Assembly (NCBI RefSeq): GCF_017377795.1
Contig: NZ_JAFRDR010000011.1
Coordinates: 1-64,000, forward strand
From: Williamsia soli
GTDB taxonomy: Bacteria > Actinomycetota > Actinomycetes > Mycobacteriales > Mycobacteriaceae
Direction of reading: 5' to 3'
Length of the DNA: 64,000 bases
Made by a program: the position numbers and the translations under genes. The notes under the pieces were generated by a model, which was not told the origin of the DNA, did not search any database, and saw nothing but the letters and a program-made list of their open reading frames with translations. Positions 44,440 through 62,064 of this stretch are shown here, in pieces. How positions within the stretch are numbered: the first letter of the stretch is position 1; the number at the start of each line of letters is the position of its first letter.

Positions 44440-44475
44440 GTAGTGACACGTTTTGCCCGCGAACCGAGGAATTTT

Positions 44476-44766
44476 ATGCCCAAGTCAAAGGTCCGCAAGA
44501 AGACCGATTACACGATCAACCCGGCGAGCCGCACTCCGGTCAAGGTGAAAACCGGACCGTCGAGCACGGTCTACGTCGCGACGATGCTCGGCCTGATGCT
44601 GCTCGGACTGCTGTGGCTGATCGTCTTCTACCTGGTCGCCACCCCCGAATCGCTCGGCGCCGACGGCAAGATCCTGAACTGGATGTACGAGCTCGGTCCG
44701 TGGAACTTCCTCATCGGATTCGGCTTCATGGTCGCCGGACTGCTGATGACCATGAAGTGGCGCTGA
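44476..44766 (+). CDS. crgA: cell division protein CrgA
   Basis: About 96 residues from the ATG at 44476, preceded by CGAGGAATTTT. The N-terminus is basic and cytosolic ([20 protein letters not shown]). Two membrane helices (about 36-58 and 75-93) follow, with the [12 protein letters not shown] loop between, which is highly conserved in CrgA. CrgA binds FtsZ, FtsI and CwsA and helps assemble the divisome. It usually lies, as here, between the pknB region and the rhomboid/ppiA genes. Confidence 0.95.
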
Positions 44767-44798
44767 CCTCCTCCTCGACACCTGTGAACACCCGAACT

Positions 44799-44876
44799 AC
44801 ATGTGTGTAATTCATCCACAGCTGTGGAACAACATGTGTGTAACTAGTCCCCATTGTGGATAAGGCCTGTGGATAA
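44799..44876. promoter_or_regulatory. DnaA-box cluster upstream of the PH-domain gene
   Basis: Two perfect DnaA boxes, TGTGGATAA (TTATCCACA on the other strand), lie at 44855-44863 and 44868-44876. A one-mismatch box TCATCCACA is at 44812-44820. A weaker one, TGTGGAACA, is at 44823-44831. Two copies of ACATGTGTGTAA (44799-44810 and 44832-44843) are mixed in. The last box overlaps the start codon at 44869. This density is higher than in the oriC gap itself. Confidence 0.65.
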
Positions 44877-45333
44877 CTCTGCTTCGTCGACCCTGTCGTG
44901 GTCGACACCTCCCGCGATGGCGGGCGTCATGGTCGCCGGCGGAGTCCTCTTGGGCGGCGCTGCGCTGATCGCGGGGCCCGATCCGGCAGGTGTCCTGCTG
45001 ATGGTCATCGCCGCGGTGCTGCTGCTCGTACTCGGCGCCATCGGACTACGCGTCCGCCCGCGACTGGCGGTGGTCGACACCCACACCCTGGCGATCAGGA
45101 CGCTCACCGGTGGTGTCCGGCGCTATGCGTTTGACGAGGTGCGCCGAGCCCAGGTGATCAGCTACCCACGACTGGGCAGGCGGGTGCCGCATCTGGAGTT
45201 CGACATCGACGACGCGACCGCCCACGACGGCGAGCGGTTGGTGATCTTCGGGCGCTGGGATCTCGGGGCGAACCCACTCGACGTCGCCGACACGCTCCGG
45301 GAGGCCGGGCTGGCGATACAGGAACGGAAGTGA
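44869..45333 (+). CDS. PH-domain membrane protein
   Basis: About 154 residues from the GTG at 44869; a TTG at 44854 is in frame but lies in the DnaA-box cluster. Two hydrophobic helices (about 15-35 and 40-58) precede a bacterial PH-like domain (VDTHTLAIRTLTGGVRRYAF, VPHLEFDIDD, LVIFGRWDLGANP). Homologues sit at this locus in many Mycobacteriales; the function is not known. The codons near the start are shaped by the DnaA-box sequence (VDNSASS). Confidence 0.78.
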   Translation: MDNSASSTLSWSTPPAMAGVMVAGGVLLGGAALIAGPDPAGVLLMVIAAVLLLVLGAIGLRVRPRLAVVDTHTLAIRTLTGGVRRYAFDEVRRAQVISYPRLGRRVPHLEFDIDDATAHDGERLVIFGRWDLGANPLDVADTLREAGLAIQERK

Positions 45334-45351: not shown

Positions 45352-46230
45352 CTACAGGGTCTGGGCGCGGGCGACACTGAGCACCAGCGCAAGCAGGATG
45401 AGGCCGCCCATCACGATCCATCCGATCGCTGCGGCGTTGCGGGCGGTTTTCTTGCCGGCAGGCAGCAGTTCGGGGCCGTAGAGGATTCCGGCGGCGGCGG
45501 CCGCCCCGAAGAACAGGCCACCCATGTGGGCCCACAAGGAAATGTTCGGGATGGTCAGCGACAGCACCACGTTGATACCGATGACGCCGAGGACCATGCC
45601 GGCCGGGATCTTCGCCTTGAGAACCACCACGAGGGTCGCACCCATCAGACCGAAGATCGCACCCGAAGCGCCGGCGTTGATCGCCAGTGGGTTCTCGAAG
45701 AGCATCACCAGCGCGCTGCCACCGAGCAGTGAGGTCATATAGATCCCCACGAATCGTGCCGTGCCGAGGGTGATCTCGACATCGCGGCCGAGGATGTAGA
45801 GCGAGAACATGTTGACCGCGACATGGATCAACGAAAAGTGCAGGAACCCGGCGGTGAGCACACGCCAATATTCGCCCGAGGCCATGAAGGGCCCCCAGAG
45901 GGCGCCTTCGGTGAACACCTCCGAGGAACGCAGTTCCGTGACGCTGCCGGCCTGGAGGGCGGTGATCGCAAAGATGATGAGGTTCACCGCGAGCAGGGTG
46001 TAGGTGGCATACGGCCTGCTTGCACCGATGGTGCGGGCACGCGGGACCCGGTTCCCCGCCGCCCGGACGCAGTCGACGCAATGCTGGCCGACTGCGGCCG
46101 GATGCAGACACTCAGGGCAGGCCGGACGGCCGCACCGGCTGCACGACAGACCCGTCGGGCGGTCGGGATGCCGGACACACACCTGGGCCGGGGGCGACGG
46201 ACGCCCGGGCACCGGGGGCTGGAATGTCAC
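45352..46230 (-). CDS. rhomboid-family intramembrane serine protease
   Basis: A 292-residue protein. The N-terminal zinc-ribbon-like segment has four CxxC/H-type clusters (CVRHPDR, CSRCGRPACPEC, CVDC). The rhomboid core of six helices follows, with the HVAVNMFSLYILG, GASGAIFGLMGA (catalytic Ser) and AHMGGLFFG (catalytic His) motifs. This is the full form seen next to ppiA in mycobacteria (Rv0110-like layout). Substrates are unknown. It is 10 bp downstream of ppiA and probably co-transcribed with it. Confidence 0.92.
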   Translation of the reverse strand: MTFQPPVPGRPSPPAQVCVRHPDRPTGLSCSRCGRPACPECLHPAAVGQHCVDCVRAAGNRVPRARTIGASRPYATYTLLAVNLIIFAITALQAGSVTELRSSEVFTEGALWGPFMASGEYWRVLTAGFLHFSLIHVAVNMFSLYILGRDVEITLGTARFVGIYMTSLLGGSALVMLFENPLAINAGASGAIFGLMGATLVVVLKAKIPAGMVLGVIGINVVLSLTIPNISLWAHMGGLFFGAAAAAGILYGPELLPAGKKTARNAAAIGWIVMGGLILLALVLSVARAQTL

Positions 46231-58657: not shown

Positions 58658-59827
58658 TCAGCCCGGCAGGCGGACGGGCATCAGCAGGTACGTGTACTCG
58701 CTGTTCGGCGCTGCGTAGGCGCCGTTGTCGTCAGGTGTGGGCTCGGCGTCGGAACCGGGACGCAGTACCGCGGGGCGCGACGGTGTCGTGAACCCGAAAT
58801 CGACCGTCCCGGCATGCAGCGAACCGAGGCCGTCGAGCAGATATCCCGGATTGAAGGCGATGGTCAGCGGATCACCGTAGAACTTCACGTCGACCTGCTC
58901 TTCAGCGCGACCCGCATCGTCACCGCCCGCGGTCAACAGCACGGTGTCCTCACCGAACTCGAGTCGCACCTGCGCACCCCGCTCGGCGACCAGGGCGACA
59001 CGCTTGATCGCCTCGGTCAGCGGACCGATCTCGATGTTGGCGACCGAGGTGTGACTCGGCGGCAGCAACTGCCGGAACTTCGGGAACTCGGCATCGAGAA
59101 GACGGGTGGTCGTGCGTCGCCCGGATCCCAGGATGCCCAGCAGACCGTCTGCGCCGATGCTCCCGCCGGAACCGAATGCCAGTCCGACGGCCGAGGTGCC
59201 GTCCGACCCTGCGGTTCTGGCCGCCTCGGCCAAGGTCTTGGCGGGCACCAGCACCGCGGAGGTGGTGTCGGCGACCTCTGGAGTCCAGGTGAGCTCGCGC
59301 ACCGCGAGCCGGAACCGGTCCGTTGCGGCGAGCACCACGGTGTTGTTGTCGATCTCGAGGCGGATGCCGGTCAGCATGGGCAGGGTGTCGTCTTTGCCCG
59401 CTGCGATGGCGACCTGCGTGATCGCTTCGGCGAAGACGTCCGACGGGATGGATCCGGTGTTTTCCGGGACGTCGGGCAGCTGGGGGTAATCCTCCACCGG
59501 CATCGTCGGCAGCGAGAACTTGGCGCTGCCACAGACGATCGCGACGCGCGTCCCGTCGAGTTGCACGTCGACGGGTTTCGCCGGGAGCGCCCTGGTGATG
59601 TCGGCGAGCAGCTTGCCGGACACCAGCACCTGGCCTTCGTCGGCCACCTCGGCCGAGACGTTGACCTGCGCCGAGACCTCGAAGTCGAATCCCGACACCG
59701 AGAGACCGGTGTCGGTGACTGTCAGCAGCACACCGCCGAGGACCGGTACCGGAGGCCGGCTCGGCAGGCTACGTGCAACCCACGCGACCGAATCTGCGAA
59801 CTCGTCGCGAGTCACCCGAAACTTCAT
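58658..59827 (-). CDS. dnaN: DNA polymerase III beta sliding clamp
   Basis: A 389-residue protein from the ATG at 59827 ([19 protein letters not shown]). It is built of three clamp domains; landmarks are [28 protein letters not shown] and the C-terminal [10 protein letters not shown]. It rings DNA and tethers polymerase and repair factors. dnaA lies upstream across the 587-bp origin gap; gnd follows by 90 bp. Confidence 0.97.
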
Positions 59828-60414
59828 CGTGTTCAGCTTGCCCTTCTGGTTGTTCGAGCTGAGCCTGCTCCGGTGCGAAGACAACCTTCGACCGTGCGGC
59901 GTGCGCCAGGGTCTCCACTCTAAGGCGGATGACAAGTATTCGGTGCCGATGGGGTCGGCTTGGCTTCTTGAGATTCGGCCCAGGCCGATGCCTGTGGAGA
60001 TGACTTGTGCACACCCTTGCTTTTAAAGAGCTTTGTTGAGAGATAAATTCTTCGTAGTAATAGGTCCTGTGAATTTGTGGATGACAGGCAGATTCGGCTG
60101 GTATCGGCTCTGGAAGCCTGGGGGCGAAATGTCAGTCGTCCGTGAACCAACGTGACGTGCATGTGAACGGGACGCCTCCGTTCGGGAAAGGTGCACTGTC
60201 TATCCACAGATTTCAGTAGTTATCCACCGGCTTGTACACAGGCAGATCTGCTCGTGGCAGAGCGTGTGATTCGGACGAAGACGTATCGAAAGTCTCATCG
60301 TTGGGTTGAGAGTATGGCGCCGCCGGCGGCACGATGAACGCGCGCGAAGGCCCACTCGAGGCATGGAAGACCACGATCAACGTGCGGGAGAGCCCGGTGG
60401 AAAGGGCGGCAGAG
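59828..60414. other. oriC: oriC: dnaA-dnaN intergenic region
   Basis: In Mycobacteriales the chromosomal origin lies between dnaA and dnaN. Box-like nonamers here are TTGTGCACA (60005-60013), TGTGGATGA (60076-60084), CTATCCACA (60200-60208), TTATCCACC (60220-60228) and TTGTACACA (60232-60240); all differ from TTATCCACA or TTGTCCACA by one or two bases. An AT-rich tract at about 60018-60062 is a candidate unwinding element. No gene is seen. Confidence 0.85.
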
Positions 60415-62007
60415 CTAGCGGCGTGAGCGCTGTTTGATGCGTGCGGTGAGTTCCTGGACCTGGTCGTACACACGACGACGCTCGGCCATCTCCTTGCGGA
60501 TCTTCTTGTCCGCGTACATGACGGTGGTGTGGTCCCGATCGAAGGTCTCACCGATCTTCGGCAGGGACAGGTCGGTCAGCTCGCGGCACAGGTACATGGC
60601 GATCTGGCGAGCCTGCGCGATGGACCTGGTCTTACCCGGCCCGCGGAGCTCCTCGATGCTGATGTCGAAGTACTCGGCGTTGACCGCGAGGATGGTGGCT
60701 GCGGTGATCTCCAGACTCGCCGAATCGGGTAGCAGAGCCTGTAGGACGACGTCGGCGAGTGCGGTGTCGAGTTCGGAATGGTTGAGCGAGGCGAAGGCCG
60801 TGACCCGGATCAATGCGCCCTCGAGTTCACGGATGTTGCGTTCGATCTTCGAGGCGATCAGTTCGAGGACATCGTCGGGTACCCGGATGTCGTCCATCTG
60901 CGCCTTCTTGCGCAAGATGGCGATCCGGGTCTCCAGCTCGGGTGGCTGGACGTCGGTGATCAGACCCCATTCGAAGCGGGTCCGCAGGCGATCTTCAAGC
61001 GTCGCAAGCTGTTTGGGTGGCCGATCCGACGAGACCACGATCTGCTTGTTCGCGTTGTGCAGCGTGTTGAAGGTGTGGAAAAACTCTTCCTGGATACCTT
61101 CTTTGCCCTCGAGGAACTGGATGTCGTCGACGAGTAGTACGTCCATGTCGCGGTACCGACGTTTGAACGCCACCCGGCGGTCGTCACGCAGAGAGTTGAT
61201 GAAGTCGTTGGTGAACTCCTCGGTGGAGACGTACTTGACTCGCATCCCGGGGAAGAGTCGTTGCGCGTAGTGGCCGGCCGCGTGCAGCAGGTGGGTCTTG
61301 CCCAGGCCCGATTCGCCCCAGATGAACAGCGGATTGTAGGCCCGCGCAGGTGCCTCGGAGATCGCCACCGCGGCTGCGTGTGCGAACCGGTTGGAAGCGC
61401 CGATGACGAATGTCTCGAAGGTGTACTTCGAGTTGAGGCTCGAGTCGCCACTGGAGTCAGACTTCGCCCCCGAGTCGGCCGAGAAATAACTCGACCATTC
61501 GCCGCCGTTGCCGCCGGCTCTTGTCAGATCGCGGTCGCGGTCGGCGAAGGTCTCGGGCGGAGGAGAGATGTCGGGTCGTCCCGGGAGGTCGGTACGTCCG
61601 GGAATCTCCGGACGGCCATAACCGTCGGGGCGCGCGAGCCGTGAGCTGCCGTAATCGTCCACCGGCAGTGGCCGGCTGTCCTCATCGGGGAGTTCGGTCG
61701 CACCAGGTACTGCATCGGCAGCGATCGGGTCGATGCGAACGGCCAGATCCACGGTGTGTCCGAGATGGCGGCTGAGCGCGGACACGATCGGTTCGCGGAG
61801 TCCGCGCTCGATCTGTTCCTGAACTCGCGGGGTCGGCACGGTCAAGAGTGCGAAGCCCTCGGCAAGGGTCAGCGGCCGGACGAGAGAGAGCCAGGCCTTC
61901 TGTTGTTTGGACAACGGGATCCGGTTGCCTGCGGTGTCGTCATTGAGCTCGGTGACCACCTGGTGCCAGATCACGCTGAACGAGTCGTGATCGGAATCCG
62001 CTGGCAT
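60415..62007 (-). CDS. dnaA: chromosomal replication initiator DnaA
   Basis: About 530 residues from the ATG at 62007, with AGGAGG upstream. Domain I (about 10-90) starts [15 protein letters not shown] disordered Pro/Gly/Asp-rich linker (about 115-190) follows. The AAA+ domain has [13 protein letters not shown] and [12 protein letters not shown]. Domain IV has [23 protein letters not shown], which reads DnaA boxes. Start is set by the ribosome-binding site; an in-frame ATG 39 nt upstream is less likely. Confidence 0.98.
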
Positions 62008-62036
62008 GGTCGTCCCTCCTGGTGGTTCGTCACCAA

Positions 62037-62064
62037 TTGTCCACACCGTTATCCACAGGTGTGG
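62037..62064. promoter_or_regulatory. DnaA boxes with inverted repeat at the dnaA promoter
   Basis: TTGTCCACA (62037-62045, the usual mycobacterial form) and a perfect TTATCCACA (62049-62057) lie 30-50 bp before the dnaA start. CCACACC (62041-62047) and GGTGTGG (62058-62064) form an inverted repeat around the second box. Autoregulation of dnaA is the likely role. Confidence 0.6.

Follow-up and report, generated by a model that had tools for sequence, protein, structure and literature searches.

In Williamsia soli, crgA and a PH-domain gene are separated by a gap that holds an 80-bp composite array of DnaA boxes (positions 44797-44876). Judged from its sequence and place, this element is the positional counterpart of a kind of site already known, the DnaA site between Rv0010c and Rv0011c of mycobacteria, where Rv0011c is the gene that we take to be crgA. 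The element probably lowers free or ATP-bound DnaA rather than switching the PH-domain gene, and would in this way link the start of replication to division. The mycobacterial site was described, in the available text, without a known counterpart or mechanism, and its variants alter cell length and drug response; counterparts in harmless relatives let a site of this type be studied outside mycobacteria.

Anatomy of the element in Williamsia soli

The window is the whole stretch of DNA that was analysed, positions 1 to 64,000 (64,000 nucleotides) of contig NZ_JAFRDR010000011.1 from the W. soli assembly GCF_017377795.1. The element lies ∼15 kb from the dnaA-dnaN gap (oriC), and the domains encoded around it include GATase (trpG-like), PASTA kinase, rhomboid and cyclophilin. 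Its parts and the surrounding features are:

44443-44766, + strand: crgA (CrgA, Pfam PF06781), start uncertain
44797-44876, 80 bp, no strand assigned: whole composite DnaA-box element, 3′ of crgA, in the gap between crgA and the PH-domain gene
44797-44810, + strand: TnACA-N4-TGTnA motif copy 1, a possible dyad or MtrA-like direct repeat of period 11; contains copy 1 of the 12-bp repeat (44799-44810)
44812-44820, + strand: DnaA box TCATCCACA, 1 mismatch; final part of the conserved 24-bp motif
44823-44831, − strand: weak DnaA-like site TGTTCCACA, 2 mismatches
44830-44843, + strand: TnACA-N4-TGTnA motif copy 2, from the 33-bp duplication; contains copy 2 of the 12-bp repeat (44832-44843)
44845-44853, + strand: degenerate box TAGTCCCCA, 2 mismatches; occupies the place of the family-wide TCATCCCCA
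44854-45333, + strand: gene for a PH-domain protein (bPH_6, PF10756) that starts at 44854 or 44869 and corresponds in position to Rv0010c
44855-44863, − strand: perfect DnaA box TTATCCACA, member 1 of the tandem pair
44868-44876, − strand: perfect DnaA box TTATCCACA, member 2 of the tandem pair; includes the in-frame GTG 44869 of the PH-domain ORF
45352-46230, − strand: rhomboid-domain gene, convergent with the PH-domain gene
58658-59935, − strand: dnaN, identified by eye from its translation
59936-60414, no strand assigned: dnaA-dnaN gap (oriC); DnaA boxes all imperfect (≥1 mismatch)
60415-62046, − strand: dnaA ORF, identified by eye from its translation
62037-62057, + strand: second of the two close pairs of perfect boxes, TTGTCCACA ccg TTATCCACA, on the rpmH-dnaA side of dnaA; 3-bp spacing

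Along the plus strand the element reads CTACATGTGTGTAA, TCATCCACA, a weak site, CAACATGTGTGTAA, TAGTCCCCA, TGTGGATAA, GGCC and TGTGGATAA. The tandem perfect boxes are 13 bp apart start to start, with 4 bp between them, and the conserved 24-bp motif corresponds in Williamsia to 44797-44820 with 2 mismatches. The 12-bp repeat ACATGTGTGTAA, whose copies at 44799-44810 and 44832-44843 are 33 bp apart, is part of an imperfect 33-bp duplication. The original prediction, which described two perfect boxes 13 bp apart, one close match, one weak match and a 12-bp repeat, describes the site well; weak sites with 2 mismatches in fact number two. Comparison with relatives (see below) indicates that the repeat is not incidental and lies in that half of the element which is conserved most widely. 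The cluster was also thought to end on the start codon of the PH-domain gene. This is likely, with GTG 44869 lying within the last box, yet a second in-frame start, TTG 44854 directly before the first perfect box, competes with it.

Rank against chance and within the genome

The DnaA-box cluster at 44797-44876 is real and far above chance. The highest box score of any 78-bp stretch in the window is 7.0, against a maximum of 4.0 in dinucleotide shuffles (0 of 400 reach 7.0). When the predicted cluster was ranked genome-wide, the 6.07-Mb genome was found to contain 52 perfect TTRTCCACA sites and just two perfect-box pairs within 30 bp, where random placing expects 0.013; these are the element and the pair at 62037/62049. 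The pattern TGTGGAYAA-N4-TGTGGAYAA, which excludes the latter pair by its 3-bp spacing, matches the element with 0 mismatches; three further genomic matches carry 3. Reversing the pattern as a control yielded 2 matches. The element is the sole DnaA-box pair of its own spacing at ≤2 mismatches in the genome. The oriC gap itself, as the prediction had noted by eye, has only imperfect boxes (59936-60414).

The mycobacterial counterpart

Hicks et al. 2020 (PMC7738170) located DnaA on the M. tuberculosis genome by IDAP-seq and on that of M. smegmatis by ChIP-seq. The available text reports DnaA binding at the Rv0010c-Rv0011c site by IDAP-seq, EMSA and ChIP-seq, and describes there sequences resembling boxes and, 65 bp upstream of Rv0010c, a small palindrome with recurrent clinical variants. 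Three palindrome variants gave longer cells and an altered isoniazid response. Expression of Rv0010c and Rv0011c was unchanged in dnaA mutants, the rate of replication initiation was unchanged in the mycobacterial mutants, and the mechanism was left open (PMC7738170). The original prediction knew of no such site in this genus; the wider group has one.

The Williamsia element shares with this site the gap that it occupies, a DnaA-box cluster above chance and a palindrome upstream of the PH-gene start, the palindromes at 44797-44810 and 44830-44843 having been equated with that of Figure 4D in Hicks et al. by its described place. The two differ in the 33-bp duplication, seen in Williamsia, and in that DnaA is bound in mycobacteria whereas its binding in Williamsia is putative. 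The boxes, taken with the mycobacterial data, suggest that DnaA binds the Williamsia site as well.

Conservation in the family

All genomes searched in the family (201/201, from 31 genera) have CrgA, and 98 crgA loci from 98 of these genomes were compared; they are the best matches together with one to several from each of the 31 genera. Conservation in relatives, the test named with the prediction, speaks for the element. In 85 of the 98 loci (27/31 genera) the 300 bp that follow the crgA stop contain at least one perfect box, compared with 20 of 949 control windows taken from the same 98 loci. At least two boxes with ≤1 mismatch occur in the same 300 bp in 83/98 loci versus 29/949 control windows, and a 23-bp motif (≤3 mismatches) in 75/98 loci and 24/31 genera versus 3/949 windows. 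Box pairs in the same direction at 12 or 13 bp, with ≤1 mismatch each, are present in 56/98 loci (19/31 genera). The remaining sequence of the loci and the other strand, 693,854 bases together, have 17 such pairs; a number of these fall, on the other strand, in the crgA gaps of three genera (g3, g4 and g5).

Most of the genera sampled in the family have the composite of TnACA-N4-TGTnA, TCATCCmCA and two TGTGGATAA boxes 3′ of crgA. Its details vary: boxes are separated by 3 bp in some genera versus 4 bp in Williamsia, and genera g20 and g24 have versions displaced by an indel. A perfect box 3′ of crgA was not found in four of the 31 genera (g8, g11, g27 and g31) nor in 4/6 loci of g3, which have no box at all, and the examined crgA loci of g8 and g31 showed neither perfect box nor motif. 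In one relative from the same genus (L028), the module is repeated ∼90 bp apart and there are three perfect boxes.

Distribution beyond the family

A whole-genome search with the 24-bp pattern TTACANNNNTGTNATTCATCCCCA (≤2 mismatches), made independently of crgA and with the reversed pattern as control, matched 98/298 genomes of the order and 68/246 genomes of the class; the reversed control gave 0 in both. Twenty-two class genomes, 17 of them matching, were shared with the order sample, and of the 224 newly sampled ones 51 match. At this threshold the pattern was missing from 200/298 order genomes, including those sampled from families f9, f12, f15 and f16; 3′ of crgA, f15 lacks a box in 2/2 loci and f16 has imperfect boxes only in 2/2. 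Genomic context was read for part of the matches. Among 50 order loci, 39 are beside crgA, nine beside an nrdR-like ORF and two elsewhere. The 47 class loci divide into 24 beside crgA, 18 beside nrdR and five elsewhere, the last including two genomes (G505 and G616) in which the motif is beside rhomboid and ppiA matches and crgA sits elsewhere.

An exact YACANNNNTGTNAKTCATCCMCA scan of a named genome collection gave at least 120 stretches, and 80 loci among the matches listed were classified: 56 are 3′ of crgA, six more are beside PH or rhomboid genes, eight are 5′ of nrdR, and 10 are other. Among these listed loci the motif is found 5′ of the DNA polymerase III genes dnaE (L257 and L269 by Pfam, L275 by like sequence) and dnaX (L267) and on the dnaA side (L268, and L246 beside rnpA). 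Two listed Mycolicibacterium sites are away from crgA and have no clear target (L288, and L236 between flavin-reductase and hydrolase ORFs); a listed Leucobacter site (L277) also has no clear target. The listed match in Mariniphaga (L270), presumably outside the phylum, is probably due to chance.

Sixteen further genomes were reached via the CrgA family, and 13 rows were counted (L347, L352 and L354 left out). Genus g116, probably Streptomyces (L343-L346), has perfect boxes 3′ of crgA in 4/4 loci and no palindrome in 4/4. Perfect boxes at this place were also seen in L350, L351 and L355 and imperfect boxes only in L341, L342 and L356; none was found 3′ of crgA in L348, L349 (f15) and L353. In some genomes the contig starts ∼14 to 46 kb away from the crgA or motif match, a distance that measures proximity to oriC only on the assumption that the record begins at dnaA; in others the match is elsewhere in the contig.

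By these searches, many of the other families in the class, though not all, have the composite at crgA, and the examined class-wide matches appear mainly beside crgA or nrdR and rarely at dnaE, dnaX or dnaA. What is new here is this phylogenetic depth and the composite anatomy, a breadth that we have not seen described in the surveyed literature. In that literature, covered largely at the level of titles and abstract openings, no class-wide site at crgA is named, and a search on the Streptomyces cluster D78 found no paper.

Composites beside nrdR (18/47 class loci; L116-L120, L123-L125 and L171) come from several actinobacterial families, are mostly 5′ of the gene and often accompany AGTCATCCACA. 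The sequence next to the motif at nrdR-like genes is one that we take to be NrdR-box-like. DnaA may possibly control ribonucleotide reductase genes via this composite.

Probable control of DnaA by an origin-proximal site

Because the composite occurs in many families, is independent of the PH-domain gene and recurs at replication genes, the question moves from a target gene to the control of DnaA. Control of the PH-domain gene is less likely than a DnaA sink, or a site that controls DnaA activity, near the origin, and a sink or inactivation site is favored because the element is close to the origin, compact and independent of its adjacent genes. DnaA would load onto the two tandem perfect boxes and spread from there to the box that faces them and to the weaker sites. 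A compact, high-affinity site near the origin would be duplicated soon after initiation, and the duplicated site would lower free or ATP-bound DnaA by titration or in the manner of datA. Since free or ATP-bound DnaA would fall after the site doubles, we propose that the start of replication is linked to the division cycle. The unchanged initiation rate reported for the mycobacterial mutants is a poor fit to a strong initiation brake.

Titration is a plausible reading of the element, whose perfect boxes are densely packed near oriC as in a titration cluster; in sequence, action of the datA or DARS type looks the same as titration. Similarly to E. coli datA, the element has several DnaA boxes near oriC (∼15 kb) and is non-coding, with the proviso that its last box may overlap a start codon. 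For its part, datA has five boxes and an IHF site needed for activity, and promotes ATP-DnaA hydrolysis, as described in the available text of the source (PMC4585315). The same text says that untimely initiation in Streptomyces coelicolor and Bacillus subtilis is repressed by clusters of DnaA boxes close to oriC; known here by description and not by sequence, these clusters resemble the element in their proximity to oriC (PMC4585315). Unlike the element, the probable Streptomyces loci (g116) have no palindrome (4/4). DnaA of E. coli is described as favoring closely spaced pairs of boxes, and the element is likewise paired, but the E. coli optimum is 2 or 3 bp between boxes versus 4 bp in Williamsia (PMC11317965, in the part available).

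The left motif and a possible second protein

The role of the left motif, TnACA-N4-TGTnA, can be considered within any of these readings. The 158 distinct variants of the motif were selected by ≤1 mismatch in each of ACA and TGT plus an exact KTCATCCMCA, a rule by which conservation of the selected columns arises partly by construction. Position 1 is T in 120/158 and position 14 is A in 144/158, while columns 2 and 13 are free; the columns that were not selected for fit TnAC...GTnA. A symmetric (dyad) reading of the motif is possible. A DNA or RNA hairpin at the palindrome found no support, the complementarity being like that of shuffles (central pairs z 1.2 and 0.7); across the 158 variants, pair 2-13 is weakly complementary (z 2.1) and pair 1-14 falls below the shuffles (z −1.7).

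The motif could be a further DnaA arrangement, two box-like halves with no second protein, a serious contender against which we lean only slightly. Hicks et al. call the palindrome two sequences resembling DnaA boxes (PMC7738170, available text), and the motif also occurs at nrdR, dnaE, dnaX and dnaA, as a DnaA regulon motif would. However, its halves fit TTRTCCACA poorly (TTACACACA, 2 mismatches), and the TnAC...GTnA form of the columns not selected for argues in the other direction.

That form recalls MtrA boxes, as far as these are described in the available text of two papers (PMC5650626, PMC6265350): the spacing TnAC-N6-GTnA, the period of 11 and a free third position in both half-sites are shared, whereas the second half of the left motif ends in T or G and not C, and the MtrA site is putative. 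MtrA is reported to sequester or bind oriC and to touch DnaA (PMC5487470, seen in part). Loss of MtrA in M. smegmatis is described as giving filamentous cells that are more resistant to isoniazid, an earlier antisense study having found the opposite for isoniazid; the resemblance to the phenotype of the site variants is a likeness and no proof. The available text of two MtrA ChIP papers does not name a site at Rv0010c or crgA. MtrA scores above the NF040689 cut-off in 26/30 genomes, some of them without the motif, and below it in G688 (a partial hit), G694, G699 and G700; because MtrA is nearly universal, its co-occurrence with the motif is a weak test.

We conjecture, tentatively and as a reading that we hold to be rather improbable, that the composite is a two-protein checkpoint between replication and division, ancestral in Actinomycetes. 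An MtrA operator would be fused at fixed spacing to a DnaA array. Switched by MtrB, a kinase located at the septum, MtrA would determine the amount of DnaA that the site holds or inactivates and so tie division to replication; in some lineages nrdR, dnaE, dnaX and dnaA would be tuned by this composite as well. Were the left motif an MtrA site, it would provide a concrete DNA address for the coupling of division and replication. Among other candidate partners, HigA2 is described as binding ATCAC...GTGAT oligonucleotides, with its Rv0010c site placed at the DnaA site in M. tuberculosis (PMC11205783, seen in part). A class-wide role of this antitoxin would be unlikely, and HigA2 was set aside as a general partner. 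BldD, Rex, CRP and GlnR boxes were also considered.

Less likely readings: reactivation of DnaA or control of adjacent genes

A DARS-like site, at which DnaA boxes and partner sites promote ADP release and so reactivate DnaA, is a rival reading. The compact box array with its fixed non-box module recalls DARS2 with its IHF and Fis sites (PMC4585315), but the element adjoins oriC, and the E. coli site described in the available text as always near oriC is datA (PMC4585315). We regard DARS-like action as unlikely, and a sink or inactivation site remains the preferred reading.

The original interpretation is supported in part: this is a genuine, conserved cluster outside oriC, at a place bound by DnaA in two mycobacteria. 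DnaA control of the PH-domain gene, in contrast, explains the conservation poorly. As an operator, DnaA on the start codon would repress the gene and couple it to replication. The second perfect box spans the in-frame GTG 44869, and a PH match is downstream of the element in most of the 98 family loci. However, in one genus (g17, 2/2 loci, L048 and L054) there is no PH match, and the next ORF, thiolase-like by eye, is convergent, placing the element between two 3′ ends. None of the 24 crgA-side class loci has a PH match at E 1e-3; a rhomboid gene is convergent in 16 of these, otherwise placed in one (L215), and without a match in seven. In addition, the element is inverted relative to crgA in seven of the 56 listed loci 3′ of crgA (L221, L226, L227, L258, L276, L285 and L300), and the expression of Rv0010c is reported as unchanged in dnaA mutants (PMC7738170). 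An operator would be expected only with a PH-domain gene and in promoter orientation, and the examined loci do not follow this pattern. Since the element is kept without a PH-domain gene, between convergent genes and in both orientations, control of the PH-gene promoter was rejected as the conserved role on anatomical grounds, and we consider such an operator quite improbable. A promoter role cannot explain the distribution of the element; its position near the origin might.

Action on crgA, by a roadblock, antisense transcription or control of its 3′ end, is the least probable reading and very doubtful: the element is mostly some tens to 300 bp from the crgA stop, but in the two genomes with the motif beside rhomboid and ppiA (G505 and G616) crgA is elsewhere, in two listed loci (L260 and L293) it is ∼1.7 and 2.4 kb away, and Rv0011c expression is reported as unchanged in dnaA mutants (PMC7738170).

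Other palindromes and DnaA boxes in the genome

The TnACA-N4-TGTnA palindrome alone (≤2 mismatches) occurs at eight places in the Williamsia genome, against one per strand for the control. One of the eight is the element; the other seven lack a crgA match, and at one of these (L147) no box was seen by eye near the palindrome. A third box cluster in the genome (C21:63385-63603, L365) has two perfect boxes and two boxes with 1 mismatch in ∼220 bp, with a DUF4328 gene on its 3′ side and an S49 peptidase gene next to it; the cluster may be the counterpart of the Rv3843c site of Hicks et al. Finally, a perfect DnaA box lies ∼280 bp 5′ of a dnaB match (L364), and the list of mycobacterial DnaA sites, in its available part, contains the region upstream of dnaB.
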